A stretch of 64,000 nucleotides of DNA. Source: Gemmatimonadetes bacterium 2013_60CM_65_52. GTDB lineage: Bacteria; Gemmatimonadota; Gemmatimonadetes; Gemmatimonadales; Gemmatimonadaceae. Below the pieces are notes generated by a model. It was given only the letters and a program-made list of their open reading frames with translations, was not told where the DNA came from and made no database searches. The position numbers and the translations under genes are program-made. Shown here one piece after another: positions 4,490 to 64,000 of the stretch (the stretch's first letter is position 1; every line of letters starts with the position of its first letter). The DNA is taken from the NCBI GenBank assembly GCA_002215645.1, contig NGFI01000012.1:115258-179257 (forward strand). The letters are read 5' to 3'.

Positions 4490-4583
4490 GCGCGGAAGCT
4501 ATGCGCAGCGGCGCGGGGCGCCACGTGGTTGACTGGGCTCCGGCCGGCGAGCAACTTCGCGCATCGCCGCAGGAGATTCCTGC

Positions 4584-11090: not shown

Positions 11091-11118
11091 CTAGCGGCCA
11101 ATCCTCGCGAGGGCGGTC

Positions 11119-11958: not shown

Positions 11959-12085
11959 GTGCGGGCGCGGTGGCTCGACACTTACTCAGGGCGTCACACG
12001 TACGGTATTGTTAGCGGCCGTGCATCCGGCCGGTGTACCCAGCCCTCATGGATCGTGCGCGCCTTCGGGCGCGGCGTCTCTTCAT

Positions 12086-12466
12086 ATGACTTCGCTCAAG
12101 CGTTCGTCCGCAGTTCCCCTCGCGCTCGTTCCCGCGCTTTCCTCGGTGGTCGCGTGTGGGCCGTCTCAACCACAGATGGTGTCCGGCGTCGATCCCTGCC
12201 TGCCGCAGGTGTACAACGAGGTCGCCTGTCAGTACGCCACGCAGCATCAGGGCTATTACTACGGCGGCATGTGGTATCACCACGTCTACGCCATGCCGTT
12301 CATCTACTATCACAACGGCTATTCGGGCTACGTCGGCGGAGGCGGGCGCGTTCGCTCGCTGGGGGCAGGCGCATACGAGCCCCATATCGGTTCAGGCGCC
12401 CGCACGACCGTAGTTCGGGGCGGATTCGGCGGAATAGGCGGCGCGCGCGGCTTCAGCGGAAGCTGA
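12086..12466 (+). CDS. YgiB/DUF1190-like small secreted protein
   Basis: A 126-residue protein with an N-terminal hydrophobic signal ending LSSVVACGPS, probably a lipoprotein. A tyrosine- and glycine-rich middle follows (QHQGYYYGGMWYHH), and the C-terminus contains TTVVRGGFGG. That ending resembles the TTVTRGGFG tail of Escherichia coli YgiB, and the next gene, one base downstream, is a YgiC-like ATP-grasp ligase. The YgiB-YgiC gene order is therefore conserved although the body of the protein has diverged. The function of YgiB proteins is not established. The assignment rests on the tail motif plus context, so it is moderate. Confidence 0.65.
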   Translation: MTSLKRSSAVPLALVPALSSVVACGPSQPQMVSGVDPCLPQVYNEVACQYATQHQGYYYGGMWYHHVYAMPFIYYHNGYSGYVGGGGRVRSLGAGAYEPHIGSGARTTVVRGGFGGIGGARGFSGS

Positions 12467-12467
12467 C

Positions 12468-13607: not shown

Positions 13608-13666
13608 GGCCGAAAGCATGCATCGGGCTCAACGGTCACTGGTGTAAGGGCCGTTTACCGGGTATC

Positions 13667-14017
13667 ATGCGCATCGTGACCCGTCCTTTCGTCCTCCGGC
13701 TCGGCTACCTGCTCGCCGCAGTGCTGCAATTTGCGCTGCCGGCGGTCGCGTCCATTGCGGACGCAGTCGAGGAGACAGAAGGGCGTGCGGTTCGGTGCCA
13801 TGTGGAGGCATATGGCAGCCAAGCGCACCGCGTGCATCCGGAAGACTGCGTACTGTGCGGCGCTTTGTCGCATGGCGCGTCTCCAAGCACGCAGGTCGCG
13901 CTCCGCGCGCCCATCGTGCGGGCGATTCAGGCCCGTGTTGCCGCAGCGACTCGCTCGCACCATGGCGCGCGTTTGGCCGGCGACCCCCTGCAGCGTGCGC
14001 CACCGACTCTGAGCTGA
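13667..14017 (+). CDS. Small secreted/membrane protein with an HPEDCVLC motif
   Basis: A 116-residue protein with one N-terminal hydrophobic segment (LGYLLAAVLQFALPAVASI), a likely signal or anchor. A short conserved-looking stretch follows, with a histidine (CHVEAYG) and HPEDCVLCGAL. The paired cysteines with a nearby histidine suggest metal binding, but no named family is recognised. The C-terminal third is low in complexity and may be disordered. It lies just upstream of a TonB-dependent receptor on the same strand, so it may act with that receptor, for example in metal handling; this is inference. Confidence 0.55.
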   Translation: MRIVTRPFVLRLGYLLAAVLQFALPAVASIADAVEETEGRAVRCHVEAYGSQAHRVHPEDCVLCGALSHGASPSTQVALRAPIVRAIQARVAAATRSHHGARLAGDPLQRAPPTLS

Positions 14018-14021
14018 GTCC

Positions 14022-14080
14022 GGCGCCCTTGGGCGCCCGAACAACTCAATTCGAGGGGCGGAGGCACGATTCCTCCGCCC
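14022..14080 (+). terminator. Two adjacent GC-rich hairpins
   Basis: Two perfect inverted repeats lie between the small secreted protein gene and the receptor gene. The first is GGCGCCC-TT-GGGCGCC at 14022-14037. The second is GGGCGGAGG-loop-CCTCCGCCC, with arms at 14056-14064 and 14072-14080. No clear T tract follows either stem, so they could be a weak terminator for the upstream gene or a leader structure of the receptor mRNA. Confidence 0.5.
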
Positions 14081-14137
14081 GCGCATGCCGGTGAACCGTC
14101 CCGCGTGTGCTCACCGCACATTCAGCTCATGGCGTTC

Positions 14138-16525: not shown

Positions 16526-16587
16526 CGTCGAGCGTTTCCAGAACAGGCTGACGGAGATTCAGCCAGAATAGAACCAATCGGGCGATC

Positions 16588-16636
16588 GGGGAGTATTGAA
16601 TGTGCAGGCTGTTGCCGCGCACATTCGATACTCCCC
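16588..16636. terminator. 18-bp inverted repeat between receptor gene and msrA
   Basis: Arms at 16588-16605 (GGGGAGTATTGAATGTGC) and 16619-16636 match at 17 of 18 positions around a 13-base spacer. The mismatch is G:T compatible, so the RNA stem would be almost perfect. No T run follows. It may terminate the receptor transcript, or its DNA dyad may be an operator close to the msrA start 16 bases downstream. Confidence 0.6.
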
Positions 16637-16651
16637 GTTCCGCTTCCGACC

Positions 16652-17287
16652 ATGATCAAGCGTCTCCTCAGCGCATTGGCACTGTTGCCCCTCGTCGCCG
16701 CACCTGGCAGGGCTGCGCCCGTGCCTCGGCCTTCTCCACTCGATACGGTTGTGTTCGCCGGAGGCTGCTTCTGGGGCGTGCAAGCGGTTTTCCAGCACGT
16801 CAACGGCGTCGTGGCTGCCACATCCGGCTATGCGGGCGGCGCCACCGTGAAGCCGAACTACGAGGACGTCAGCACCGGCAGCACCGGGCATGCGGAGTCC
16901 GTGCGTGTGGTCTACGATCCGGCCAAGGTGTCGTTCGACAAGCTGCTCGAGGTGTTCTTCACCGTCGCGCACGACCCCACGCAGCTCAATCGCCAGGGCC
17001 CGGACCATGGCACCCAGTATCGTTCCGCGCTCTTCTACACGAGTGACGCGCAGCGGGCGGCGACGCAGGCGTACATCGCCGAGCTCCAGAAGACCGGCGC
17101 GGTTCGAGGTGCGGTCGTCACGCAGGTCGCGCCTCTCCGGGGATTCTTCGTTGCGGAGGCCTATCACCAGGACTATGCCACGCTGCACCCCGATCAGCCG
17201 TACATCGTCTATAACGACGCGCCGAAGATCGCAGCCCTGAAGAAGCACTATACGTCACTCTGGACGGACAAGCTCGCCGCGCACTGA
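16652..17287 (+). CDS. msrA: Secreted peptide-methionine (S)-S-oxide reductase
   Basis: A 211-residue MsrA carrying an N-terminal signal peptide (MIKRLLSALALLPLVAAPGRA), so it acts outside the cytoplasm. The catalytic GGCFWG motif is at about residue 37, followed by the typical VVAATSGYAGG, GHAESVRVVYDP, GPDHGTQYRSALFY and EAYHQDY segments. MsrA reduces methionine sulfoxide in oxidised proteins. An exported copy implies a periplasmic repair role, and it would need an electron donor system not seen in this window. It is close to the usual size for a single-domain MsrA; no MsrB is fused. Confidence 0.93.
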   Translation: MIKRLLSALALLPLVAAPGRAAPVPRPSPLDTVVFAGGCFWGVQAVFQHVNGVVAATSGYAGGATVKPNYEDVSTGSTGHAESVRVVYDPAKVSFDKLLEVFFTVAHDPTQLNRQGPDHGTQYRSALFYTSDAQRAATQAYIAELQKTGAVRGAVVTQVAPLRGFFVAEAYHQDYATLHPDQPYIVYNDAPKIAALKKHYTSLWTDKLAAH

Positions 17288-50510: not shown

Positions 50511-50618
50511 GAAGAGCTCCTGGTGGGGGGAGCTCTTCCATATGGTGGAGGCTGACCCGTGCCAGCCACGTGGCGGGCACGATCCTCATACCGTGGGCAA
50601 TGGCGTCCGGGAACTCGC

Positions 50619-51446
50619 GTGATCGCCCTCATTACGGGACGAGCCGACGCCGCGCGCATCGCGGCCGCCTTGCGGCCACTTCCTGTCCGTTTCGTCAGCA
50701 CCACCGGCGAGCTGCGCGCAGCCGTGGACGAGCTGCATCCGTCCTGCGCGGGCCTGATCCTCGAAGCCCACGACGCTCGTGGCGAGTCCACGAGTCCCTT
50801 CATCATCGCGATGATCAGAGCGGGCGCTCGCATCCCAATTCTTGGCTACACCAGTGCCGGACCGGCACACGCCGATGACATCCGCGACTTTGCCCACGCC
50901 GGCGTCCACGAGTTGGTGTTCCGCGAGGTCGACGATTCCCCCGCCCTTCTCACGGCAAAGATCAGCCGTGGCGAGGAAGCATGCGCTGCGGCCGAGGTGT
51001 TCGCGCGCATTGCCGCGCACACACCGGTTCGCCTGCGCGGCATGATCGACTACGTGCTGAACTACCCCCGGCAGGATCACTCGGTGACGTCAGTTGCATC
51101 GGCGCTCGGCATCCATCGCAGAACGCTGGTGAATTGGTGCGAGCGCGCCAAAGTGCCGCCGCCGGCCACGGTCATCACGTGGTCTCGCCTGCTCCTTGCC
51201 GCCGAGTTGTTGCAGGTGCCGGGGCGCCCTGTGGAGCGAGTTGCCAATTCGCTGGAGTTCGCGTCGGCCGCGGCGTTCCGCAACCTGTGCCAACGGTACC
51301 TGGGCCGTCGCCCATCGACGCTGCGCGAGCCGGGTGCGCTCGACGAGTCGTACGCGGCGTACGCGAACGCCATGACGTCGGCGCTCCGCGGGGGCCCACC
51401 CCAGGATGCGAGCGTCCAGCCGTTTCGGAGCGTCGGCGATCTCTGA
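50619..51446 (+). CDS. AraC-type regulator with receiver-like N-terminus
   Basis: A 275-residue DNA-binding protein from a GTG start. The C-terminal HTH pair is clear: VTSVASALGIHRRTLVNWCE and VERVANSLEFASAAAFRNLCQRYLG, two helix-turn-helix motifs of the AraC/XylS family. Residues 1-120 look like a degenerate receiver domain (ITGRADAARIAAALRPL, CAGLILEAHD, IPILGYTSAGP) without the usual full acidic pocket and phospho-Asp context. So it may respond by protein contact rather than phosphorylation. Targets are unknown; the TPR gene upstream is the nearest candidate partner. Confidence 0.8.
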   Translation: MIALITGRADAARIAAALRPLPVRFVSTTGELRAAVDELHPSCAGLILEAHDARGESTSPFIIAMIRAGARIPILGYTSAGPAHADDIRDFAHAGVHELVFREVDDSPALLTAKISRGEEACAAAEVFARIAAHTPVRLRGMIDYVLNYPRQDHSVTSVASALGIHRRTLVNWCERAKVPPPATVITWSRLLLAAELLQVPGRPVERVANSLEFASAAAFRNLCQRYLGRRPSTLREPGALDESYAAYANAMTSALRGGPPQDASVQPFRSVGDL

Positions 51447-52013: not shown

Positions 52014-52238
52014 TCAGCGCTCCAGCTCGGCCTCGGCAAACAGGCGGGAAACCGGCAGCTTCAGGACGCGCGCGATCCGCTCGATGTTGTCGAGTGAGAT
52101 GTTGGTCTCCGCTCTCTCCACTGAGCCGATATAGGTCCGGTGGAGTTGGCACGCGTCGGCAAAGCTCTCCTGGGAGTAGCCCGCCGCGCTGCGGAGGCGG
52201 CGCACGGCCAGCCCCAATTTTCTACGTAGCGTGGGCAT
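52014..52238 (-). CDS. XRE-family regulator (paralogue 1)
   Basis: A 74-residue HTH-XRE protein: LRRKLGLAVRRLRSAAGYSQ, with SQESFADACQLHRTYIGSVE as the recognition helix-turn-helix. It is a single-domain repressor-like protein with no ligand or protease domain. It is close in sequence to the XRE gene 100 bases upstream, and both are divergent from the sigma-factor gene, so it may regulate the lasso/SusCD locus. Confidence 0.85.
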   Translation of the reverse strand: MPTLRRKLGLAVRRLRSAAGYSQESFADACQLHRTYIGSVERAETNISLDNIERIARVLKLPVSRLFAEAELER

Positions 52239-52338
52239 GGCCTACGCTCGCGCTGCGACGCGCATGACTCTACAGCGTATGCGCAGACAGCCTTTACATG
52301 GCGCAGCAAAAGCGGTAAGCTCGGCTCGACGGGACTGA

Positions 52339-52572
52339 TTAGCGCTCGCGCTCGGCTTCGGCGAGCAACACGCTCGGCGTCATGCCCAGCGCGTTCGCGA
52401 TCTTCTGGATCGTCATGATGGTGGCAGAAACGCGGCCGCGCTCCACGAGCCCCATGTACGTGCGGTGAATGCCGGCGGCCGCGGCGAAGGACTCCTGCGA
52501 ATAGTCTGCCTGCGCGCGAAGCCGGCGAACGGCGCGTCCAAGCTTTTGTTGCATTGTGATCATCGCCGGCAA
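52339..52572 (-). CDS. XRE-family regulator (paralogue 2)
   Basis: A 77-residue HTH-XRE protein: LGRAVRRLRAQADYSQESFA then AAAGIHRTYMGLVERGRVSA, with a C-terminal RMLSVLLAEAERER-like end. The same SQESFA-HRTYxG core and the AExER ending occur in its neighbour, so these are tandem paralogues. Its start is 100 bases from the divergent sigma-factor gene, so it could control that promoter directly. Confidence 0.85.
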   Translation of the reverse strand: MPAMITMQQKLGRAVRRLRAQADYSQESFAAAAGIHRTYMGLVERGRVSATIMTIQKIANALGMTPSVLLAEAERER

Positions 52573-52672
52573 CGGTGGATCGCCGGTGTACCCGGTTCTA
52601 CAGCAGATATGGTGGGGGCATATATGCGTCTCTCGATCAGACTGGGCGGCTTTCGCGATTCGGGGTGGGAGC

Positions 52673-53233
52673 GTGCGTGAGGCAGGGGCAGGTGATGCGC
52701 TCTCCTTCCGCGAGCTGTTCGACGCCCACGCGGAGGCGTTGCGGCGCTATGCGCGACGGTTCGTTCGCTCGCGCGAAGTTGCCGAAGAGCTCGTGCAGGA
52801 GGTGTTTTTCCGCCTGTGGCGGGCGTGGGACACCGTGGATCGCGGGCCCAACATCCGGGCATATCTCTACGTCGCGACCCGGTCGCGCGCTCTGAACCAT
52901 CTCAAGCGGGAGCGGAGCGAAGCACGTATGCACGCACATGTGTTCCCGCGGGGAATCGACAGCGACGAGCCGGCGCTGCCGCCCGATGCCGATCGGAGTC
53001 TCGAGACGGACGACGTCGCTCGCGCGATCCAGCGTGTGCTGGACGCGATGCCGCCGCGACAGCGTGAGGTGGCGGGATTGCGACTGGGGCGGCAGCTCTC
53101 CACCGCGGCGATCGCCCGGCAGCTCGGTATCTCGCCGCGCACGGTCGAGGTGCACATCGCGCGGACGACGAAGGCGCTGCGCGAGCAGCTGCCAGCGCTG
53201 CTCGCCGATCGGAGGATTTCCCGGGGTGACTAA
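52673..53233 (+). CDS. ECF sigma factor, FecI-like
   Basis: A 186-residue extracytoplasmic-function sigma factor. Region 2 is at about residues 12-82 (FRELFDAHAEALRRYARRFV, ELVQEVFFRLWRAWDTV, NIRAYLYVATRSRALNHLKR). Region 4 is at about 115-170 (AMPPRQREVAGLRLGRQLST, AIARQLGISPRTVEVHIART). The GTG at 52673 gives normal length; a longer in-frame extension lacks support. A FecR-type anti-sigma follows 89 bases downstream, then a SusC receptor with a signalling domain, so this is the cytoplasmic end of a transport-coupled signalling chain. Confidence 0.9.
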   Translation: MREAGAGDALSFRELFDAHAEALRRYARRFVRSREVAEELVQEVFFRLWRAWDTVDRGPNIRAYLYVATRSRALNHLKRERSEARMHAHVFPRGIDSDEPALPPDADRSLETDDVARAIQRVLDAMPPRQREVAGLRLGRQLSTAAIARQLGISPRTVEVHIARTTKALREQLPALLADRRISRGD

Positions 53234-53322
53234 GTAGTTCGTCGCATGTCCGCTGTTACATGAGCGATCGGACAGCCTGATCAACCTGGCTGTCGGGGCC
53301 GACCCTTTCGCTCCGTACGCGC

Positions 53323-54300
53323 ATGTCTGACGTGGACTGGGATCTCGTGTTTCGCTACTTCGGCGATGAGTGCGGCGCCGAAGAACGTGAGGAGTTCGAG
53401 CGTTGGCTGAACGCTGATCCACGCCGGCGTGTGGTGGTGGAGGCGGCGGCAGTTGCCGCCGACCGGTCGCTCGCGGAGCTGCGTCGTGGCTCGCCGCGGC
53501 CGCGTGTGCGTGTCGCCACGCCGTGGCCTGCGAGCGATGCCTCCTGGCGGATGGGCGCGGCGGCAGCGGCGCTGCTGCTGCTCGCTGGCACTGGCGTGCT
53601 CTGGATCGAGCGGAGTGGCACGTCAGCAACCGCAGAACGCGAGGCGGCTCCGCTTCGCATGGCGCGGACGACGCGTGGCGAGCGCCGGACGTTCGATCTG
53701 AGCGATGGAACGCGGGTCGTACTCGGCGCAACCAGCACGCTACGATATCCCGCGGCGTTCGGCGCAGGTGCGCGCGAGGTGTCGCTCACGGGCGAGGGCT
53801 ACTTCGACGTGAAGCACGACTCGGCACATCCATTTCGCGTGCACGCTGGCCATGCCACGGCGGAGGACGTCGGCACGCAGTTCGGCGTCCTTGCGTATGC
53901 CGGCGACAGCGTAGTGCGCGTGGTGGTGAGAGAGGGGAGCGTCTCGCTCGGCGCAACCACGGGACCGGCGAGCCCGGGCGCGCTCGTGGTTCGCGGACAA
54001 TTGGGAACCCTGGCAAGGGGACGCGTGCTCGCGTCGGTGCACACCGTGAACGTGGATGCCTATCTCGGCTGGACCGAAGGACGGCTCGTCTTCGATGAGA
54101 CGCCGTTGTCGGAGGCGCTCACTCAGCTCGGCCGGTGGTATGGCGTGCCCTTTCGGGTAGCCGATTCGGCGCTGCTGTCACGGAGACTGACGGCGTCGTT
54201 CACGACCCAGTCATTGCCCGACGTGCTGACCGCGCTCGCTCCTGTGCTCGACGTGCGCTTCGAGTCGGTGAGCGGCGCTGTTCTCATGCATTCCCGGTGA
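53323..54300 (+). CDS. FecR-family anti-sigma regulator
   Basis: A 325-residue inner-membrane protein. Residues 1-70 are the cytoplasmic sigma-binding part (DVDWDLVFRYFGDECGAEER), 77-95 a transmembrane helix (MGAAAAALLLLAGTGVLWI), and 115-205 the periplasmic FecR domain (RRTFDLSDGTRVVLGATSTL, SLTGEGYFDVKHDSAHPFRV). The last 70 residues (FDETPLSEALTQLGRWYGV) form the DUF4974-like C-terminal domain, which contacts the receptor's signalling domain. It sits between the sigma gene and the SusC gene. Confidence 0.92.
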   Translation: MSDVDWDLVFRYFGDECGAEEREEFERWLNADPRRRVVVEAAAVAADRSLAELRRGSPRPRVRVATPWPASDASWRMGAAAAALLLLAGTGVLWIERSGTSATAEREAAPLRMARTTRGERRTFDLSDGTRVVLGATSTLRYPAAFGAGAREVSLTGEGYFDVKHDSAHPFRVHAGHATAEDVGTQFGVLAYAGDSVVRVVVREGSVSLGATTGPASPGALVVRGQLGTLARGRVLASVHTVNVDAYLGWTEGRLVFDETPLSEALTQLGRWYGVPFRVADSALLSRRLTASFTTQSLPDVLTALAPVLDVRFESVSGAVLMHSR

Positions 54301-54323
54301 CTCACCGACACAGGAGATACGTC

Positions 54324-57300
54324 GTGCTACGCTCGTTGCGTCTTGGGTGGCTCATTGGGGTGACTGCGCTGTGCGCATCGCGTTCGCTCCCGGCGTACGG
54401 ACAGGATAGTGGTGGCCAGCGCACCGCGCTGTCACCTCGGCTCGTGACGCTGGACCTGTCCGATGTTCCGTTGCGGGAGGCGCTCAAGGCGGTTTCGCGT
54501 GAGAGTGGAGTCTCACTCATCTATGCGAGCAGCACGGTGCCGTTGGAGCGGCGCGTGTCGCTGCATGTGCAGGCGGCATCGGTGGACGCTGCACTGCGGG
54601 ATGCACTGCGCGAGACGGATGCCGAGCCGCGGGAGACGGCGTCGGGGCAGGTGATGCTCGTAAAGCGGTCGGTGCGTCCGGCGTCGGAGCGATTGGAGAA
54701 GGTGTTGGTTGGCTCCATCAATGGGCGCGTAATCGACTCGGCGGGAGGAACGGCCGTCTTTCGCGCGACCGTGACCGTCGATGGTGCGCGTCGCACGACC
54801 ACCGATGACGACGGACGGTATCGGTTTGCAGATGTGCGCGCTGGCGCCCACGTGGTGGAGATTCGTCGCATCGGCTATGCGCCGATATCACGGTCGGTCA
54901 CGGTCTCGGATGGAGGTGCAAGCACTGCCGATTTCGTTCTGACGCGGGTTGCGTCGCAACTCGAAGAGGTGGTGATGACGGTGACGGGGCCGCAGCGGCG
55001 GTTGGAGGTCGGCAATGCGATCGGGCGAATCCAGGCGGACAGCGTGATGCGCGATGCGCCGGTGACGAGCCTCTCGGATCTGATCAATGCTCGCGTGCCG
55101 GGCACGCAAGTCGTGTTGAACAACGGGCTGTCCGGCGGCTCGCCACGAACGCGCATCCGTGGCCTGAACAGCATCACCGTTGCAAATGATCCGCTGCTCG
55201 TCGTCGACGGAGCGAGGGTGGAAAACAGCGCCACCGCGATCGCTGGCTATGGCCTGACCCCCGGCCGCTTCAACGATCTCAATCCGGAAGAGGTCGAGTC
55301 GGTGGAGGTGGTAAAGGGGCCGTCGGCGGCGACGCTCTACGGCACTGACGCCGCAAACGGTGTCATTGTCGTAAAGACGAAGCGCGGCCGTGCGGGACGC
55401 CCATTGTGGTCTGCGCACGGGGAGTACGGGCTCATTCAGCAGAACGCGCACCTCCTGGACAACTACTACTCGTGGGGGCACAACACGCTCACGGGCGCCA
55501 TTCAGCAGTGCACGCTGACGCTGCTCAGCGCGGGCACGTGCATCGCCGACAGCCTCACGACGTTCAATCCGCTGATGAACACCGAGACGAGTCCGATCGG
55601 AACGGGCTATCGGCAGCAGGTGGGCCTCCAGGCGTCGGGCGGCGTCGCGCAGTTCACCTACTTCCTCGGCGGCCAGTACGAGGGGGAGACAGGGTTTCTG
55701 CGCATGCCCGCGATCGATCAGAGCAGAGTGTCCCTGGAGCGAGGCGGCGCAGCGATCCCGAGTGAGCAGATCAGGCCAAATGGGCTGCACAAGGTCAGCA
55801 TGCGCGGCAACGCCGGGGCCGCGCTTGGCCCGAAAGCGGACGTGAATCTCTCCGTTGGGCTCATATCGAGTGAGACTCGCTTGCCGGGTAGCGCCGTGTT
55901 CCAGGCCGGCGGCTGGGGACTTGGGTATCGGACTGCACAGGACGGTTGGCTTCCGATTCTCTCTCGTCCTGGCGAGGGATTCGCGATCCGCAACACCGAA
56001 TCGACGACGCACAGCATGAACAGCCTGAGCAGTAATTGGCGGCCTTCCTCATGGCTGTCAGTGCGCGCCACGGGGGGCTTCGATTTCTCCAGTGCACTGC
56101 TCGACGCACTGCAACGGCGAAACGAGGGGCCGCTTGGCGTCAACAGAAATGGCCAGCGTATCAGCAGCCGCACGAACGTTGCGCTATACACGGTGGATGT
56201 GGGTGCGACTGGCACACTCATGCTCCGATCCAGCGTTACGGCTCGCACGTCGGTGGGATTGCAATACAATCGCCGGCAGCTTGGAGCCACAACGGCCACC
56301 GGGACGAACCTTGCCATCGGTTCCGAGACCCTGGCTGGTGCGGCGGTGGTATCGGGCACGGAGCAGACCGTCCAATCCGTCGTTGCCGGCGCCTACGTGG
56401 AACAGGGGCTCCGGTTCGATGATCGCCTATTTCTCTCAGGTGCGCTTCGTGCCGATGGTGGCAGTGCATTCGGGCGCAACTTCAAGACTGCGCTCTATCC
56501 GAAGCTGAGTATCTCGTGGCTCGTGAGCGATCGCCGCGAGGGGATATTGAACAGTCTTCGGCTTCGTTCAGCATTCGGCGCATCGGGTGTTCAGCCAGGA
56601 AGCACGTCCTCACTCGCGCTAATCGGCCTGGCTCCGGCGCTCGTGGACGGAGCGAACATCACGGGCGCAAGACTGAGCGCCATCGGCAATGCCTCGCTGA
56701 AGCCGGAACGGCAATCGGAGCTCGAGGCCGGTGCGGACGTGGAGCTCATGGGCGGGAGCGTACGACTCGAGGCGACGTATTACGACCGGCTCAGTCGCGA
56801 TGCCTTGATCGACCGTCCTCTTTCCTCCGAGCTTGGCATTGCCTCGCGTCAGGAAAATATCGGCTCCGTCAGAAATCGTGGCGTGGAAGGATTGCTTTCG
56901 TTGACTGCCGTTGAAAACCACAGGCTTACGTGGGACATGAGCGTGAATGGCTCGCTCAATCACAATCGTCTCGAGGAGATCGGCGCCGGCATCGCCTTCA
57001 TCGGTGGCAGTCCGAACTCGCGCAGCATGCAGGGCTATCCGCTGTTCAGCAGATTCGCGCGTCCGATTCTGGGTTTTGCGGATGCGAATCGTAACGGCAT
57101 CATCGAGGCGTCCGAGATCCAGGTCGGCGACGGCCTCGCATATGTCGGACAGTCGTTTCCGCCGAAGCAGCTCACGGTGTCGAGCAGTCTCACGCTGCTA
57201 GGCGGCGACCTCAAAATTGCCACGCAATTCGATCATCGAGGCGGAAATCGGATCGTGAACTTCAACGAGAGCAACCGGTGCAGCATCACATTCAACGACT

Positions 57301-57647
57301 GTCGGGCCGTTAATGACCCTGGCACTCCATTAGCCGATCAAGCCAATGCCGTAGCGTCGAACACCGTCGCTTTGGGTCGCACTTCCTATGGCTACTTGCA
57401 GGACGGCTCATTCACGCGGTGGAGGGAGCTCTCCGTGAGCTGGGCGCTGCCCATGAGAGCGGCTGCCGGGCTACGCGCGCAGACCGGAAGACTGACCATC
57501 ACCGGACGAAATCTGCGGCTCTTCACGGCATATCCGGGCGTCGACCCGGAGGTGAACGCATCCCCCGGATTTGGCGACGGCTACAGCGACAATCCCACCC
57601 CACCACCCGCGCGGTATTTGTTGCTGCGCATCAACCTTGGGTTCTGA
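54324..57647 (+). CDS. SusC-type TonB-dependent receptor with N-terminal STN signalling domain
   Basis: A 1107-residue outer-membrane receptor from a GTG with AGGAGA upstream. After the signal peptide (LGWLIGVTALCASRSLPAYG) comes an STN domain at about 41-96 (LVTLDLSDVPLREALKAVSR). That domain is the element which touches FecR. Then a CarboxypepD-reg-like domain (GSINGRVIDSAGGTAVFRAT), a plug (VTSLSDLINARVPGTQVVLN, TRIRGLNSI, LLVVDGARV, VEVVKGPSAATLYGTDAANG), and a large beta-barrel. Its partner SusD gene follows. It should take up a peptide or glycan; the locus suggests lasso peptide (inference). Confidence 0.92.
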   Translation: MLRSLRLGWLIGVTALCASRSLPAYGQDSGGQRTALSPRLVTLDLSDVPLREALKAVSRESGVSLIYASSTVPLERRVSLHVQAASVDAALRDALRETDAEPRETASGQVMLVKRSVRPASERLEKVLVGSINGRVIDSAGGTAVFRATVTVDGARRTTTDDDGRYRFADVRAGAHVVEIRRIGYAPISRSVTVSDGGASTADFVLTRVASQLEEVVMTVTGPQRRLEVGNAIGRIQADSVMRDAPVTSLSDLINARVPGTQVVLNNGLSGGSPRTRIRGLNSITVANDPLLVVDGARVENSATAIAGYGLTPGRFNDLNPEEVESVEVVKGPSAATLYGTDAANGVIVVKTKRGRAGRPLWSAHGEYGLIQQNAHLLDNYYSWGHNTLTGAIQQCTLTLLSAGTCIADSLTTFNPLMNTETSPIGTGYRQQVGLQASGGVAQFTYFLGGQYEGETGFLRMPAIDQSRVSLERGGAAIPSEQIRPNGLHKVSMRGNAGAALGPKADVNLSVGLISSETRLPGSAVFQAGGWGLGYRTAQDGWLPILSRPGEGFAIRNTESTTHSMNSLSSNWRPSSWLSVRATGGFDFSSALLDALQRRNEGPLGVNRNGQRISSRTNVALYTVDVGATGTLMLRSSVTARTSVGLQYNRRQLGATTATGTNLAIGSETLAGAAVVSGTEQTVQSVVAGAYVEQGLRFDDRLFLSGALRADGGSAFGRNFKTALYPKLSISWLVSDRREGILNSLRLRSAFGASGVQPGSTSSLALIGLAPALVDGANITGARLSAIGNASLKPERQSELEAGADVELMGGSVRLEATYYDRLSRDALIDRPLSSELGIASRQENIGSVRNRGVEGLLSLTAVENHRLTWDMSVNGSLNHNRLEEIGAGIAFIGGSPNSRSMQGYPLFSRFARPILGFADANRNGIIEASEIQVGDGLAYVGQSFPPKQLTVSSSLTLLGGDLKIATQFDHRGGNRIVNFNESNRCSITFNDCRAVNDPGTPLADQANAVASNTVALGRTSYGYLQDGSFTRWRELSVSWALPMRAAAGLRAQTGRLTITGRNLRLFTAYPGVDPEVNASPGFGDGYSDNPTPPPARYLLLRINLGF

Positions 57648-57731
57648 TCCGTGCGTGTGGCCTCCTCATGTATTCAGTACGAGCCGGAAACCGGCCCGAT
57701 ATGGCACCTCGTGTCTCTCCGCGAGGCGCGT

Positions 57732-59012
57732 GTGAAGCCAGTTGCGGTGAAGGCAGCGATGATGCTCTTCGCCATGGTCACTGGTGGCTGCTCGGACCTG
57801 ACGACGGTCAAGGCGCCGGACGTGCTCGAACCACCGGCGCTCGCGACGTCCGGCGGGGCGGAAGCACTTCGCGTCGGCGCGATCAACGGATTCGTGCTCG
57901 CGTTTGCCGGTGACGCACGTGGGCAGATCACCATAAGCGGCGCACTTGCCGACGAGTTCTTCAACGCTGCGGCGACGGTGATTGGGCTTGCGGAGGCAGA
58001 TCAGCGCATCATGCCGGACCCCAGTAGCGCGTATCCGTACGCCCTGGTCCATCGCGCCCGCCTGGATGCCAAGCGCGCCATCCAGGCGATGCAGGCGTAT
58101 GCGCCTGCATCGCGCTCCAAGATTGGAGAGCTGTTCGCGCTGAAGGCGTACAGCGAACTATTCCTCGCTGAGAACATGTGCTCCGGCATTCCGCTCGGAG
58201 AGCTCGTGGATGGCAATCCCGTCTATGGCCGACCGGTCCTGAGCGACGAGCTCTATGCTCAAACGCTGCTCGACTTCGACTCCGCGTCAGTTTATGCGGC
58301 GGACAGCACGAGAATTCTTTCACTCGCTCGCGTCGGGCGGGGGCGCACACTGCTTGGCGCGGGGAAGTTTGCCGCTGCGGCCGCAGCTGTTGCCGCCGTT
58401 CCGACGAGCTACTCATACGTCACCTTTCACTCCGCCGCTGCCCAGCCGAATGGTGTGTTCTCGATCATCAACAACCTCAAGTTCATCACCGTCGCCAATC
58501 GAGAAGGCGGCAACGGGCTCGATTTCCGTACGGCGCAGGATCCACGAGTACCGACGGTGCTTGTGGGAAAAGGTGTCGACGGTACGACTGACGTGTACGG
58601 GTTCGCGACGTATTCAAGCCTCGCCGCTTCCATAGTCTTGGCAAGTGGAACCGAAGCGCGTCTGATCGAGGCGGAATTGGCGTTGCGCACCGCCGATGTG
58701 AGTGGTGCGTTCGCGATACTGAATGCCTTGCGAACGACGAAAGCGGGACTCGCACCGCTGACTCCGGATTCCACCGCGTCAGGGCGTGTCGATCAGCTCT
58801 TCCGCGAAAGAGCCTTCTGGATGTTCGCGACGGGACACCGCCACGGCGACCTGCGTCGGCTCATCCGACAGTACGGCCGCACGGTAGAGTCGGTCTTCCC
58901 GAGCGGTCCGTACAAGGCCGGCCAGATGTACGGCGCAGAAGTGACGTTCGCGCCCGATGCACAGCAGCTCGCCAATCCCGGCTACATCGGGTGCACGAGC
59001 CGAGCCCCATAA
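57732..59012 (+). CDS. SusD/RagB-family surface lipoprotein
   Basis: A 426-residue lipoprotein from a GTG: MKPVAVKAAMMLFAMVTGGC with the lipobox Cys at residue 20. A GTG at 57651, just after the SusC stop, is possible but would put 27 extra residues before the signal. The SusD core shows AKRAIQAMQAYAPASRSKIG, ALKAYSELFLAENMCSGIPL and RERAFWMFATGHRHGDLRRL. SusD caps the SusC channel and holds substrate on the cell surface. It follows SusC directly. Confidence 0.9.
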   Translation: MKPVAVKAAMMLFAMVTGGCSDLTTVKAPDVLEPPALATSGGAEALRVGAINGFVLAFAGDARGQITISGALADEFFNAAATVIGLAEADQRIMPDPSSAYPYALVHRARLDAKRAIQAMQAYAPASRSKIGELFALKAYSELFLAENMCSGIPLGELVDGNPVYGRPVLSDELYAQTLLDFDSASVYAADSTRILSLARVGRGRTLLGAGKFAAAAAAVAAVPTSYSYVTFHSAAAQPNGVFSIINNLKFITVANREGGNGLDFRTAQDPRVPTVLVGKGVDGTTDVYGFATYSSLAASIVLASGTEARLIEAELALRTADVSGAFAILNALRTTKAGLAPLTPDSTASGRVDQLFRERAFWMFATGHRHGDLRRLIRQYGRTVESVFPSGPYKAGQMYGAEVTFAPDAQQLANPGYIGCTSRAP

Positions 59013-59115
59013 CGGCGCTCTCGCAGCGTCGCGAGCTGAGAGACAGCCGCTCCGCGAAGGGTCTTCTGACCAGGATGCTCCGCGGGTTCGAGCCTCATCT
59101 CCAATCCCACCAGTC

Positions 59116-61467
59116 ATGAACCGTTCAGTAGTCCTACTCCTCGGCGCGTTGGCGTGCATCGCGATTCGCGCGTCAGCGCAGAAGTCCGCGCCGCTGCCGA
59201 TTGACGTTGCCCTCGCTCAGCCGAAGTTTCCATCCTACATGCCCATAGCCTTGTCGCCCGACGGTGCGTGGGTGGCGTATACGCTGCAATACCCCGCTCG
59301 TCGTTCAGCCGGCGACCAGTCGAGCGGCTACCTCCGAAACGGCGTGTCGGGAAGCGTGGAGTCGTGCCGCCTCTGGCTCACGGACGTTCGAACCGGGCGA
59401 ACGATTGCGGTCGCTGATCAGAACGCAACGACGTGGGCGCCGGCGTGGTCGCCCGACGGCAAGTGGCTCGCCTACTACTCTGACGAAGACGGCGTGCCGC
59501 GTCTCTGGGCGCGCGAGACAGCCACGGGGCGGAGCAGGCGTGTGTCCGACGCCATTACACGATCGTTCACTTCACTTCAGGTGCCACGGTGGACGCCGGA
59601 CAGCAGGCGAATTGTCACACGCATCATCCCGTATCGATCCGAGTTGCCTGAAGCGCGAGCGACATCGGCCGCCACGGAACTGACGGCAATCGCCGATACG
59701 GCGTCCACCGTGACGGTGTGGCACACGGATCGCGCCCGGCCCTATGGCGGAGGCCAATCCCTGAAGGTTGGGGGTGGTGGGCAGAGCGGCAAGATGGTCG
59801 CCGATCTCGCCGCAATCGACCTGGCAACGGGCACGGTGAGGACGCTAGCCAGCGGCCTCACGCCGCTGGACTATCGGGTTGCACCGGACGGCCGCTTCCT
59901 CGCATTCACGACGTACCGACCGATGGAGATGACGAGCGAGCCAACCAGTATGTTCGGGTTGTTCGTCGTGCCGCTGGACGCTGCGGGATTGCAAGGGCCT
60001 CAGGCGCTCGAGACAAACGCCGCGATCGCCGACTTCGGAAGAAGCGTGGTTTGGTCTCCTGATGGAGCCACGCTACTCTACTCGGCGACCGATAGCGCCG
60101 GGTACGAGCGCCACTATGCGGTGCGACCCGGGGATTGGCATACCAAACGGATTACGCTGACAGGGTCATTCACGCTCGAGAACGAGAAACGTCCGAACAT
60201 CGGCCGGTCTCTGTGGTGGCGCGAGCGGGGCGATGAGTTTCTAGTCATGAGTTCGCACGGCCTCGCGGCCATCTCTACAGATGGTCTTGTTCACGCCTCG
60301 GTGTACGCTCCCGCCGGATATCAGCTCCTGACGCTGGTTGGTGGGGCAACGCAGGGAGCTGCGTGGACGGATGATGGCCACTCCGTCATCGCCGTCGTTC
60401 TAAACGACTCCACAAAGCGCACCGGCTTCGCGAGAATCGACGTCGATCGACAGCTATGGCAACTGATTCGCGAAGATGATCGGAGCGTGGGAACGCGAGC
60501 GTTTGTGCCGCTCGACATATCGCCCACCGGCACGCTGGTGTTCGAGAGCGAGGACGCGCAACACCCGCCAGATCTCTGGACAACGTCCGACTTCGCGATA
60601 CAGCGGAGGCTGACGAACACGATGCCGCGCATGCAGGACTACAAGCTCGGGGTGACGCGCCTCATCGAGTGGAACACGACCTCCGGCGCGTCACGACGCG
60701 GTACGCTCCTGCTGCCGAGCAACTACACGCCAGGTACACGATATCCTCTCGTTGTCTATCCTTATCCGCTGAGCTACAGATCAGAGGACCTGAACGTATT
60801 CGGCGTCAATGGCAGCGGCGTGGAGAACATGCAACTCCTGGCGACGCGCGGTTTTGCCGTGCTGGCACCCGACGTTCCGCCTATCCAGTGGACCGATCAG
60901 ATGCGCGAGCTAGCAGGCGTGATCATCCCCGGAGTCGACCGGGTGATCGAGCTCGGCATTGCCGACTCAAATCGCGTCGGCGTAATGGGCCATAGCTGGG
61001 GCGGGTACACAGTTCTAGCTCTTCTCGTGCAGACTCAACGATTCCATGCAGGACTGATGCGAGGCGGGTTCGGGGACCGACTTGCGAGCTACGGCACAGT
61101 GGAGCCATCTGGTTGGGCGCGTGGCGCGCTCGTCAGCGACTGGGAGATGGGCGGAACCGTATGGGAACAGCGGGAGCGCTTCATTCAGAATTCCCCCATT
61201 TACTTCTTTGATCGCATCCATACGCCGCTGCTCATCGTTCACGGAGAGGCCGAAACCACGGTGCCAATTTTCCTCGCCGACCAGGTGTTCGCAGGTCTCC
61301 AGCGCCTTGGAAAGGAAGTGGAATATGCGAGATACAAAGGCGAGAACCATGGTGAAACGGCGTGGAGGTATGCGAACCAGAAGGACTATGTCGCGAGAAT
61401 CATTCGATGGTTCGAAACTCGCCTTGGAATCGACGCCATCGCTCCCAAGGTTGAAGAGAAGCGCTGA
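59116..61467 (+). CDS. Secreted S9 (prolyl-oligopeptidase-like) peptidase, candidate lasso isopeptidase
   Basis: A 783-residue exported protein (signal MNRSVVLLLGALACIAIRAS). Residues about 45-500 form a beta-propeller (MPIALSPDGAWVAYTLQYP, WAPAWSPDGKWLAYYSDEDG). Residues 525-775 are an alpha/beta hydrolase with the nucleophile Ser627 in GVMGHSWGGYT and His745 in KGENHGETAW. The usual acid position reads HGEAETTVP, so Glu713 stands where S9 enzymes normally have Asp. It is last in the sigma/FecR/SusCD series and convergent with two lasso precursor genes. In Proteobacteria, isopeptidases of this fold open lasso peptides next to such genes; the assignment here is inference. Confidence 0.8.
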   Translation: MNRSVVLLLGALACIAIRASAQKSAPLPIDVALAQPKFPSYMPIALSPDGAWVAYTLQYPARRSAGDQSSGYLRNGVSGSVESCRLWLTDVRTGRTIAVADQNATTWAPAWSPDGKWLAYYSDEDGVPRLWARETATGRSRRVSDAITRSFTSLQVPRWTPDSRRIVTRIIPYRSELPEARATSAATELTAIADTASTVTVWHTDRARPYGGGQSLKVGGGGQSGKMVADLAAIDLATGTVRTLASGLTPLDYRVAPDGRFLAFTTYRPMEMTSEPTSMFGLFVVPLDAAGLQGPQALETNAAIADFGRSVVWSPDGATLLYSATDSAGYERHYAVRPGDWHTKRITLTGSFTLENEKRPNIGRSLWWRERGDEFLVMSSHGLAAISTDGLVHASVYAPAGYQLLTLVGGATQGAAWTDDGHSVIAVVLNDSTKRTGFARIDVDRQLWQLIREDDRSVGTRAFVPLDISPTGTLVFESEDAQHPPDLWTTSDFAIQRRLTNTMPRMQDYKLGVTRLIEWNTTSGASRRGTLLLPSNYTPGTRYPLVVYPYPLSYRSEDLNVFGVNGSGVENMQLLATRGFAVLAPDVPPIQWTDQMRELAGVIIPGVDRVIELGIADSNRVGVMGHSWGGYTVLALLVQTQRFHAGLMRGGFGDRLASYGTVEPSGWARGALVSDWEMGGTVWEQRERFIQNSPIYFFDRIHTPLLIVHGEAETTVPIFLADQVFAGLQRLGKEVEYARYKGENHGETAWRYANQKDYVARIIRWFETRLGIDAIAPKVEEKR

Positions 61468-61499
61468 GAATTGACCGAGAATCTGACGACTCTGTAGCA

Positions 61500-61527
61500 G
61501 CGAGTAGGAGACGCCTCTCCCACTCGC
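61500..61527. terminator. Bidirectional hairpin between S9 gene and lasso precursor A2
   Basis: GCGAGTAGGAGA-CGCC-TCTCCCACTCGC, a 12-bp stem (one G:T-type mismatch) with a 4-base loop. It lies between the convergent stops of the S9 gene (61467) and precursor A2 (61540), where a shared terminator is expected. Confidence 0.65.
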
Positions 61528-61539
61528 CACTCTGACCAC

Positions 61540-61686
61540 CTAGAGGCCGAAGCCCACCGCGCCAACCGGCCTCGCCTGCAATGCCAGCGATTCGCCGGGA
61601 TCGCCCATTCCTTCGGCCACTGCCTTCGTGATCTCCAGGACGCTGCCCTTCGCCGTGAGCTTAGGTGCTGCGTAGTTCTTCTGCAT
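61540..61686 (-). CDS. Lasso peptide precursor A2
   Basis: A 48-residue precursor. The leader starts MQKNYAAPKLTAKGSV and follows the canonical lasso pattern: Tyr5, Pro8, Leu10 and Gly14 sit at -17, -14, -12 and -8, and Thr20 at -2. Core (27 residues) starts at Ala22 (AVAEGMGD) with Asp29 at position 8, so an Ala1-Asp8 macrolactam is predicted with a 19-residue tail ending VGAVGFGL. A GAGG ribosome-binding site is eight bases before the ATG. The ATG 8 bases further upstream opens a different frame and was rejected. Confidence 0.9.
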   Translation of the reverse strand: MQKNYAAPKLTAKGSVLEITKAVAEGMGDPGESLALQARPVGAVGFGL

Positions 61687-61715
61687 GATCTCATCCTCGG
61701 TTAATGGTACGAAAT

Positions 61716-61735
61716 GCCGTCGGGAATTCGACGGC
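61716..61735. terminator. Hairpin between the two lasso precursor genes
   Basis: GCCGTCG-GGAATT-CGACGGC, a 7-bp stem with a 6-base loop, within the 89-base gap between A1 and A2. It may attenuate transcription so that A1 is made in larger amounts, or stabilise the A1 mRNA end. Confidence 0.45.
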
Positions 61736-61775
61736 GCGATGACCTGGCTGGTGGGACGGCGGTCACTGCTACTGC

Positions 61776-61916
61776 TCAGAGGCCGAAACCGACGCTTCCT
61801 GGAGTCAGCGACTGAAGCGTGTCAATCGGATCGCCGCTGCCACCGCCGGCGGCCTTCGTCGTCTGCATGACGTCGCCCTTGGCAACGAGCTTGGGTGCCG
61901 CGTAAATCTTGGACAT
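61776..61916 (-). CDS. Lasso peptide precursor A1
   Basis: A 46-residue precursor. Leader MSKIYAAPKLVAKGDV has Tyr5, Pro8, Leu10, Gly14 and Thr20, at the positions (-17, -14, -12, -8, -2) expected for recognition by the B1 and B2 proteins. Core of 25 residues starts Ala22 (AAGGGSGD); Asp29 is position 8, giving an 8-residue Ala1-Asp8 ring, and the 17-residue tail starts PIDTLQ and ends SVGFGL. AGGAGA lies about nine bases before the ATG. Ala at core position 1 is less common than Gly but known in characterised lasso peptides. Confidence 0.92.
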   Translation of the reverse strand: MSKIYAAPKLVAKGDVMQTTKAAGGGSGDPIDTLQSLTPGSVGFGL

Positions 61917-61967
61917 GGTTGGTTCTCCTGGACTTTCGTCCGATCAGAAATCAACTGCAGGGAAACT

Positions 61968-63839
61968 TCACTTCGTCGAACCTGAACTACCGATCTGCGA
62001 ACCCTTCGCCGCCCACCGGCCAGATCGTATTTGAAGCCACAGCTCTACCTCGAGCGTGCTGCCAACCCGCGACGACGAGCCTTTATGCCCGCCACGTCCC
62101 TCACGCGCTGCACAAACCGCATCGCGCAATCGCTTCGGATCCACGCACCCGAGCTGCCCGAGAATCGGATCCTCCAGCAGCCGGTCGAGGTATTGCCGTT
62201 CGTGCGTCAACGACCACACGTCGAAACCGTCCGCCTCTCCCTTGCCGACCCGCGTACGCACGAACTCCGGCAGAATGCCTCGCATCGACTCACGAAGAAT
62301 CCACTTTCGCTGCTGCGGCCGGACGACCAGCTCCGGAGGCAATCGCAGCGAAAGCTCCACGAGCGGACGGTGGAGGTACGGATGCCGCACATCCAACGCG
62401 TCCTCATGCGGCCCATCGATCAGCGTCGACGGAATGGCCGCGATCAGCGCCGCCTGCGCCTGCTCGTACTTGTGCCCAAGGCGACCGCCATACACCTGGT
62501 CGTGCGCGGTGCGGGAGACGATGTCGAACCGCTGCGTGGCCTCCGACGTCAACCACGGCGGCACATCACCCTCTCCGCCACGGGTGAGTGCGCGACGCAG
62601 ACCAGTCGGCAAGAGCGGAAGCAGCGCGTTGCGATAGGCCAGCTCCCAGAACGACACCCTGCCCAACGCCGCCCGATACGCCATTTCCGCGAGCGCATGC
62701 CCCAACTGACCGGACACCACCCAGTCTGCAAAGAAGAACATCGTGCCCAGTGCGAGGTTGTCTCCGCCAAGTCCGGTGAACAACACTCGACCTCCCGCAC
62801 TCTCGATGACACGGGCCGCCTCGCAATCGCGCGCGGCCGCCGGAAAGGACCGATTCGGTTGATCGAGTAGCGGTGGATCGATCAGCACCTCGCTGCGGCT
62901 CACGCGATGCGGCACAAGCTCGTTGCGCACGTGCCAGTGCTGCACCACCGCGTCCGAGTACTCCTTCTCGTCGGCGCCGGTTCCAAGCGAGTCGGTGAAC
63001 GTCACGGTGCCACCGAGTCCGTGCGTCGTGTCGCCGCGCGCAGCGAGCCACTGGGAGAGACTGACCACAGACGACGAATCGAGACCGCCGGACAGATGTG
63101 ACCACGTCCGCCCATCGCCAGAGAGGCGCTGGCGCACGGCGTCCATCAGCATCGTACGAAACGCATCCACGCTGTCGCTCGCCGAAAGAACAACGTGGTC
63201 GCGAGCCTGCGCCTCTTCCGCGGACCAATAGCTCGACAAGAGCGGGGTACCGTTTCGTACACGAAGGGCAGTCGCCGCGGGCACCGCTCGAACGTTCGCA
63301 TACACCGTCCGCTCCGGATCGGGAGCACAGTACGAGACGCGCTCGGCGAGATACTGCACGTCGTACGAATCTCCCGCCGCAAGCGGAGACGCGTGGGAGC
63401 AGAAGGTGATCAGTCCGTCGCGTGGCCCAGCGTAGTAGAGCTTTCGAACGCCGAACGTGTCCCGCGCGGCGAGGAGACACCCTGACGTCGGATCCCAGAC
63501 GACGAACGAGAAGTCGCCCTCCAGCCGGCCGATTCTCGCACCCTGATCCCGCGTGACGAACTGCATCACGAGTCCCAGATCGCTCACGTCGTCGTCGCGA
63601 CGAGACAACAGCCGCAGCACCTCGGCCCGATTGTCCAGCCGCGCCACGCCAATGCCGATCGCGGCTCCGAGGCGCGCCACGACGGGGCCGCCGAAATCAT
63701 CCGCAGAAGCGAGACCGAGAAATCCTCGGGCAGTATGGCTCCCCAGCTGCGTCATGGGTCGTGAGCGGGCGATCGTATCACTGAACGACGCGGGCACCGG
63801 TCCGCCGTCCATCCGCACAGCGCACGCGAAGAATCTCAT
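61968..63839 (-). CDS. Lasso cyclase (asparagine synthetase-like C protein)
   Basis: A 623-residue enzyme that adenylates the ring Asp side chain and closes the lasso macrolactam. Residues 1-200 form a degenerate glutaminase-like domain (EGDFSFVVWDPTSGCLLAARD). The PP-loop SGGLDSS is at 250-256, in a typical asparagine-synthetase setting, and the C-terminal part keeps LFTGLGGDNLALG and VRHPYLHRPLVELSLRLPPE. No catalytic Cys2 exists, as expected for a cyclase. The ATG overlaps the B2 stop by four bases (ATGA). Confidence 0.92.
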   Translation of the reverse strand: MRFFACAVRMDGGPVPASFSDTIARSRPMTQLGSHTARGFLGLASADDFGGPVVARLGAAIGIGVARLDNRAEVLRLLSRRDDDVSDLGLVMQFVTRDQGARIGRLEGDFSFVVWDPTSGCLLAARDTFGVRKLYYAGPRDGLITFCSHASPLAAGDSYDVQYLAERVSYCAPDPERTVYANVRAVPAATALRVRNGTPLLSSYWSAEEAQARDHVVLSASDSVDAFRTMLMDAVRQRLSGDGRTWSHLSGGLDSSSVVSLSQWLAARGDTTHGLGGTVTFTDSLGTGADEKEYSDAVVQHWHVRNELVPHRVSRSEVLIDPPLLDQPNRSFPAAARDCEAARVIESAGGRVLFTGLGGDNLALGTMFFFADWVVSGQLGHALAEMAYRAALGRVSFWELAYRNALLPLLPTGLRRALTRGGEGDVPPWLTSEATQRFDIVSRTAHDQVYGGRLGHKYEQAQAALIAAIPSTLIDGPHEDALDVRHPYLHRPLVELSLRLPPELVVRPQQRKWILRESMRGILPEFVRTRVGKGEADGFDVWSLTHERQYLDRLLEDPILGQLGCVDPKRLRDAVCAAREGRGGHKGSSSRVGSTLEVELWLQIRSGRWAAKGSQIGSSGSTK

Positions 63840-64000
63840 GACGCCAGGCCCTCTATAGGGCGGAAGCGTCTCACGTGCTCCGGTACGTCGTTGATGGGAT
63901 GCCCTCGATACTCGATCCAGGCGTGTGCGAGAAACGGGTACGACTGCACGCCCATGCGGTAATGCGCCACGATCCCCCGGCGGCGAAGACACCAGTAGAG
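63836..64000 (-). CDS. Lasso leader peptidase B2 (transglutaminase-like), 3' end only
   Basis: The last 54 codons of a B2 protein; the start lies beyond the window. The visible chain (LYWCLRRRGIVAHYRMGVQS, then YPFLAHAWIEYRGHPINDVP) has the AHAW-x-E motif with the catalytic His of transglutaminase-like lasso peptidases, and the following Asp. It overlaps the cyclase start. A B1 (RRE/PqqD-like) gene and an exporter should lie further upstream on this strand. Confidence 0.85.
   Translation of the reverse strand, partial: LYWCLRRRGIVAHYRMGVQSYPFLAHAWIEYRGHPINDVPEHVRRFRPIEGLAS

Follow-up and report, generated by a model that had tools for sequence, protein, structure and literature searches.

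A lasso peptide cluster facing a SusCD-S9 peptidase operon in Gemmatimonadota: a predicted circuit for sensing, recapture and opening

Lasso peptide clusters that carry an isopeptidase gene together with a TonB receptor and a sigma/anti-sigma pair follow a published pattern, and the biological role of the isopeptidase-linked peptides is described in the same source as still enigmatic (PMC9266682). The stretch analysed here, hereafter the window, comprises 64,000 nucleotides of Gemmatimonadetes bacterium 2013_60CM_65_52 (contig NGFI01000012.1; G000:C5:115258-179257, where G, C and L numbers are our handles for genomes, contigs and loci), and its right edge coincides exactly with the contig end. 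Between 52.6 and 61.5 kb, its plus strand carries genes for an extracytoplasmic function (ECF) sigma factor, a FecR-type anti-sigma factor, SusC, SusD and an S9 peptidase, in that order. On the minus strand, convergent with this operon and separated from it by 72 bases, lie two lasso precursor genes, a lasso cyclase gene and the last part of a B2 leader peptidase gene. We consider it moderately probable that the two operons form one circuit, in which the predicted peptides are made, sensed, likely re-imported by SusCD and likely linearised in the periplasm by the S9 peptidase. The convergent layout recurs with lasso-type biosynthetic genes in Gemmatimonadota and Acidobacteriota. A preliminary description had seen in the locus the isopeptidase, FecI, FecR and TonB receptor logic of Proteobacteria, and the layout agrees with this, matching two Sphingomonas loci (L231, L232) as well as the pattern set out in PMC9266682.

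The recurrence was followed through homologues of the S9 gene (59116..61467, plus strand; Peptidase_S9 88 bits, PD40), which encodes a prolyl-oligopeptidase-type serine peptidase and predicted lasso isopeptidase. One search covered 395 genomes of the phylum (102 with E<=1e-45, mostly matches to the catalytic part) and scored two candidates per genome, and the other covered 179 genomes of the family (10 with E<=1e-80) and scored five, limits under which further S9 copies may be missed. The union of both gave 13 genomes with a close S9, defined as at least 315 bits. Lasso genes face the S9 gene convergently in 11 of the 13 (G000, G104, G025, G199, G206, G328, G407, G420, G424, G425 and G362), the last being counted by a precursor, with its contig (L158) ending 0.5 kb past the S9 gene. 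The layout is also present in G107 (L069), whose S9 is more distant (134 bits). Upstream of S9, ten of these 12 genomes carry a TonB receptor gene and G420 a SusD gene, at which its contig (L256) starts; the contig of G328 starts inside the S9 gene. For example, G407 (L257), from the same genus, keeps the order XRE, ECF, FecR, SusC, SusD, S9 and facing cyclase, with matches of 26 bits in the place of the second XRE gene (at a contig edge), 1351 bits for SusC and 434 bits for SusD. The conserved linkage across Gemmatimonadota anticipated in the preliminary description is borne out by these genomes. Among metagenome proteins, 18 of 34 S9 clusters (at least 47% identity, among the matches listed) share their longest-contig size, as judged by eye, with a listed SusD match, and therefore SusD-S9 pairing looks common there. 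In G425 (L142/L259) the lasso cluster, which has at least two precursors, is separated from the TonB receptor by three tandem S9 genes, which may provide one opener per peptide.

The converse count starts from the lasso side. B2-type genes occur in at least 119 of the 395 phylum genomes, and the B2 regions examined in the family were a first 40 and then 12 more (L238-L249), a part of the total. An S9 of the window's family stands beside the cyclase in four of the 40 (L053, L068, L069 and L084). A quick tree of 55 cyclases, with support from the Shimodaira-Hasegawa-like approximate likelihood ratio test (SH-aLRT), contains one clade of 15 rows (SH-aLRT 100) that unites the 11 S9-linked cyclases sampled from Gemmatimonadota with four others lacking a visible S9. 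At two of these four the contig ends at the cyclase (L238, L241), at L239 a TonB receptor faces the cyclase before the contig ends, and at L077 neither S9 nor TonB receptor was detected. No S9 of the window's family and no facing S9 was found at any of the 31 cyclase loci in the other large group. Weak S9-profile matches (34-77 bits) occur at 12 of these 31, none in facing position. In L066 and L087 the matching protein is a propeller (PD40) protein with no Peptidase_S9 match; those of L085 (10498-13422) and L243 (10526-13045) are DPP-IV-type S9s adjoining B1 in divergent orientation, within another lasso cluster type of genus g23; and the remaining eight were judged to be of the L066 kind from score and length alone. 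In this tree the linkage follows one cyclase clade.

The arrangement is also present outside Gemmatimonadota. A cross-phylum survey from named GTDB records (the best 80 of 374) found four Acidobacteriota loci (L140, L143, L144, L147) in which S9 faces a lasso-type cyclase and B2, with an OMP_b-brl_4 barrel before the S9 in L140 and L143. The short candidate precursors of L143, L144 and L147 end in YESDE, YEADE or ADWES. Other Acidobacteriota carry S9s of another lineage, of which those of L233 and L234 face lasso genes, while L235 is cut short by the end of its contig. In the cyclase tree L233 and L234 group closely with L143, L144 and L147 (SH-aLRT 99); since sister cyclases face S9s of either lineage, the slot of the putative opener was refilled, and it is filled from two S9 lineages. 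The predicted receptor slot is likewise filled by SusCD, by plain TonB receptors or by other barrels, its type varying and its position staying: SusC and SusD occur in the window and G407, and plain TonB receptors in L053, L068, L069 and L084, where no SusD was detected. In two g23 loci (L084, 2987-4999; L120) the position that SusD occupies in the window, after the TonB receptor and before S9, is taken by a BNR-repeat protein of 671 residues. As receptor and opener have both changed under a constant arrangement, it is probably this arrangement that selection maintains.

The lineage of the window S9 was placed with a 58-row alignment and quick trees that have SH-aLRT support only and some long branches. 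The AtxE2-type S9s of Sphingomonas group with Acidobacteriota L233-L236 (SH-aLRT 96), apart from the window-type S9s. A single clade of all lasso-linked S9s, including AtxE2-type and Acidobacteriota rows, was rejected (log-likelihood -206.7, p 0.00027), as was one of window-type S9s with L233/L234 (p 6e-9); a clade of window-type linked S9s alone was not rejected (p 0.12). The very long branch of L069 led to its exclusion from all three tests, and L234 has two tandem S9s, one in the tree and the other matching it at 1115 bits. The tree thus shows the window S9 in a different lineage from the AtxE2-type isopeptidases. Ser626 and His744 of the catalytic motif are invariant in the 58 sequences, the acid being Glu or Asp. 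Signal-peptide-like N-termini were recognised by eye in the S9s of the window, L053 and L084 and in the AtxE2-type S9 of L231. The structure model built from the alignment has a predicted local distance difference test score of 91.1 and a predicted template modelling score of 0.92. Foldseek matched both its beta-propeller and its alpha/beta hydrolase, an architecture common to S9 peptidases at large and hence unspecific. A search with a profile built from five linked S9s placed AtxE2 second, behind the structure 8wt1, and one with the single sequence placed it 11th; in a VIA-align rerun no isopeptidase was among the 50 rows, which carries no weight either way. The modelled fold fits isopeptidase activity and does not prove it.

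The lasso operon opposite is split over two contigs, the window breaking off inside B2 because its contig terminates there. The asparagine-synthetase-type cyclase C (61968..63839, minus strand; Asn_synthase 116.8 bits, GATase_7) has the lasso cyclase model NF033535 as its best NCBIfam match, at 165.7 bits and below the cut-off of 525. Next to it lies the C-terminal end of the B2 leader peptidase (63836..64000, minus strand; Transglut_core3 45.8 bits). In reverse complement, the last 82 bases of the window are identical to the end of contig C4 (L004), where an AraC-type gene, B1 (PqqD) and the part of B2 encoding its first 107 residues are located. B2 scores 65.4 bits against NF033537, above the cut-off of 33, and B1 scores 56.1 bits against PqqD, below the lasso-specific B1 cut-offs. 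The AraC-type protein of C4 shares 40% identity over 238 residues with one encoded directly upstream of B1 in L053, a shared order which, together with the 82-base overlap, supports the inferred join of the contigs and the arrangement AraC-B1-B2-C-A1-A2. The genes of a lasso cluster are therefore represented here by precursor motifs, a PqqD-type B1, a transglutaminase-type B2 and an asparagine-synthetase-type cyclase. A second small PqqD-like protein is encoded directly before the AraC-type gene (L004, 15475-15798). Another B2-like transglutaminase gene (C5:108727-109113; L005 8707-9561, minus strand) was first taken for part of another lasso cluster that had an S9 as well, an idea that was dropped, as no cyclase was seen beside it and an aminotransferase-like gene adjoins it (by eye). 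A promoter and terminator scan of the convergent gap between S9 and the lasso operon found nothing.

Both precursor genes lie downstream of the cyclase, A1 at 61776..61916 and A2 at 61540..61686 on the minus strand. Their cores begin AAGGGSGD and AVAEGMGD, respectively, each with a predicted 8-residue ring closed at Asp8, and their leaders share a Y..P.L motif and a Thr-Lys ending with Thr at -2. Across S9-linked Gemmatimonadota loci 18 precursors were collected, 12 with leader patterns that fix neither the spacing nor the ring acid and six by eye, and their cores were numbered from two residues past the spacing Thr. The distance from leader Tyr to Thr is exactly 15 residues in 18 of 18, and the ring acid, Asp or Glu, is found at position 8 of the core in 17 precursors and at position 9 in the other. 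The C-terminus reads (V/I/L/A)G(F/Y)xL in 15 of the 18, with exceptions in L121, L257 and one precursor of L084 that ends SFGL. The first core residues are A, A, Q, H, V, M, L, A, I, M, S, A, T, N, Q, V, G and G. Gly, Ala, Ser and Cys are named as observed first ring residues, and metanodin starts with Asn, in PMC12670498; 10 of the 18 cores begin outside these five. The second precursor of G420 (L256, 3237-3377, minus strand) has Cys6 and Cys15 in its predicted core, a possible disulfide.

The operon for sensing and uptake opens with the ECF sigma gene (52556..53233, plus strand; Sigma70_r2/r4_2; TIGR02985 131.2 bits, cut-off 126.4), whose true start probably lies some 117 bases inside this open reading frame. 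Domain calls here and elsewhere come from Pfam and NCBIfam profile searches against curated cut-offs. It is followed on the same strand by FecR (53323..54300; FecR 64.1 bits, FecR_C 53.2 bits) and by the SusC-type TonB-dependent receptor (54321..57647, start inferred; CarboxypepD_reg, Plug and a weak STN domain). The STN match (E 3.6e-6, 27.1 bits) falls just below the Pfam cut-off of 28.4, and SusC scores 351.6 bits against TIGR04056, just below the NCBIfam cut-off of 368.25. The set for surface signalling, namely ECF, FecR and an STN-bearing receptor, is present, with ECF and FecR over their cut-offs and STN just under. The SusD/RagB-type surface lipoprotein (57651..59012, plus strand) has no SusD match of its own in the Pfam scan, and its homologues at 60-66% identity include SusD/RagB-named or PF07980-bearing proteins. 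SusC is directly succeeded by SusD, and the pair is kept in L257. Two XRE-type helix-turn-helix (HTH) regulators on the minus strand, a XRE/Cro-type protein of 74 residues (52014..52238; HTH_3 46.8 bits) and one of 77 residues (52339..52572; HTH_31 45 bits), are divergent from the ECF gene and lie outside the sigma operon. An AraC-type gene is found upstream of the XRE pair (50559-51446), and AraC matches of 78-82 bits occur upstream of ECF in L139 and L159. The gene list of the preliminary description stood in order, strands and families; it had counted a single precursor where two are present, had placed the XRE genes in line with the operon from which they diverge, and had named a B2 that is only partly contained.

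From these genes the circuit can be laid out as follows. The lasso operon would make two lasso peptides in the cytoplasm, which would be threaded and exported. SusCD would bind the exported peptides, and binding at SusC would be passed through STN to FecR, freeing the ECF sigma factor and raising the operon's own expression. The peptides would enter the periplasm through SusCD by TonB-driven import, where S9 would hydrolyse the isopeptide bond that joins residue 1 to Asp8/Glu8, and the opened knot could be degraded or release a cargo. The peptide itself may be a signal or a carrier. One and the same peptide would thereby link synthesis, re-import, signalling and opening.

Several observations weigh against this circuit, and three other readings were considered. 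No ABC (ATP-binding cassette) exporter or immunity gene was found near the window's own lasso cluster, nor in those of L053, L068 and L069, so that S9 could replace immunity: SusCD and S9 would then remove and destroy the producer's own lasso peptide, and the signalling would only be the induction of this removal by its substrate. Three tandem S9s beside two precursors, as in G425, would suit a need for dose or substrate range. However, the g23 clusters L084, L141 and L142 have an ABC transporter together with S9 (and TonB receptor, FecR and ECF where the stretch reaches), so S9 is not a mere substitute, and an importer is an odd route to immunity. The known isopeptidase-linked peptides except astexin-1 are, moreover, reported to be without antimicrobial activity (PMC9266682). 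Such protection is an unlikely account of the locus.

Other points concern the linkage itself. Close S9s with no detected lasso genes (cyclase, B2) are found in G353 and G120 within stretches of about 20 kb; in L131 (G101, same family) SusC is divergent and beside a distant S9; and no lasso genes occur in the stretches holding ECF-FecR-TonB receptor-S9 in L153 (a gammaproteobacterium, 4102-11178) and L168 (Sphingomonas colocasiae, 4569-11370), or ECF-receptor-S9 of the other lineage in L236 (Acidobacteriota, 8875-16941). S9s of the wider clade without detected lasso genes likewise occur in several phyla. S9 and cyclase distances correlate (r 0.54, 0 of 5000 permutations, 15 loci), which favours the circuit, although part of this correlation is phylum structure. 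The pairing of SusCD with ECF/FecR is widespread in nutrient uptake and the S9 fold is ordinary, so the SusCD-S9 operon might be a plain peptide-scavenging operon that chance or shared mobility has placed next to lasso genes. This is less likely still, given that the linkage, present in 11 of 13 Gemmatimonadota genomes and convergent in each case, involves three receptor types, extends to two phyla and tracks one cyclase clade. Regular SusCD-S9 operons without lasso genes, which the preliminary description had named as evidence to the contrary, do not appear among the close Gemmatimonadota S9s: around the unlinked S9s of G353 and G120 a TonB receptor was not detected either, over the same stretches. 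The receptors of L153, L168 and L236 are possible eavesdroppers, and the genome of L168 carries AtxE2-type lasso clusters elsewhere.

The remaining points concern the identity of the enzyme and of some products. The window S9 reaches 140 bits against the AtxE2-family model NF033523, short of the cut-off of 400. AtxE2 membership by profile was considered, NF033523 being the best NCBIfam match, and was rejected: scored per stretch, another S9 of this genome, not linked to lasso genes, reaches 99.5 bits and the window S9 93.7, and therefore this match is not used as evidence. The nearest folds of the model are ordinary bacterial S9 carboxypeptidases or peptidases (8wt1, 5yzo), the best being the carboxypeptidase 8wt1 (E 4.9e-44, template modelling (TM) score 0.66), and the isopeptidase SpI-IsoP ranks only 24 (TM 0.56). 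The candidate precursors of L143, L144 and L147 have, by eye, no acid at core residues 7-9, and may be atypical lasso precursors or give another product. That S9 is a maturation protease which trims the tail or linear lasso forms and spares the isopeptide bond, as solved folds of carboxypeptidase and acylaminoacyl-peptidase types and a lineage other than that of AtxE2 might suggest, is the least likely of these accounts, since its gene stands in the receptor operon and not in the biosynthetic one, as AtxE2-type genes do, and its N-terminus points to the periplasm and thus to a step after synthesis.

Beyond the window, the circuit of sending, sensing, recapture and unlocking may have been assembled at least twice, with an opener from a second S9 lineage and with SusCD or other barrels in place of the usual TonB receptor in Gemmatimonadota and Acidobacteriota, so that the knot would be a lock opened by its maker; we regard the chances of this wider claim as about even. 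If a second S9 lineage and several receptor types did build the same arrangement, opening of the knot after recapture would be a selected function and not an accident of one family. The loci also offer a new set of putative openers for lasso knots, SusCD receptors for which a peptide ligand is predicted, and precursors whose rings would begin with residues such as Gln, His, Val, Met, Leu or Ile. No report of such a SusCD-S9-lasso locus was found in literature titles and abstract openings, a scope outside which most subscription papers fall.

FecI-FecR-FecA and SusCD with ECF/FecR are surface signalling systems. The window resembles them in its ECF (TIGR02985), FecR/FecR_C, SusC with a weak STN and SusD, and differs in its presumed ligand, which would be the neighbouring lasso peptide and not ferric citrate or a glycan. 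Metanodin resembles the window in that its lasso cluster includes an isopeptidase gene, which the window has as a prediction, and in a first ring residue other than Gly; unlike the window, it is of Steroidobacterales origin, its ring starts with Asn, and TonB goes unmentioned in the main text (PMC12670498). The rubrinodin cluster combines an ABC transporter with an isopeptidase (PMC9266682), as do the g23 clusters L084, L141 and L142 with their S9, whereas the window's own cluster has no detected ABC transporter and an S9 of different lineage. The proteobacterial isopeptidase clusters of astexin (AtxE2), sphingopyxin I (SpI-IsoP) and benenodin share with the window an S9, a TonB receptor, FecR and ECF beside the lasso operon, and the two-clade cyclase pattern found here resembles the division between isopeptidase-linked and other clusters, both as given in PMC9266682. 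Similarly, the AtxE2-type S9s of Sphingomonas colocasiae and a congener (L231 and L232; 671 and 708 bits to NF033523) are convergent with a cyclase and B genes, as in the window. These Sphingomonas loci have a precursor-like open reading frame before the B gene, whereas the window precursors lie downstream of the cyclase; the window regulators are of XRE and AraC type, whereas GntR is reported for known isopeptidase clusters. Unlike the proteobacterial clusters, the window combines another S9 lineage with a SusC and SusD receptor and a split B1/B2.

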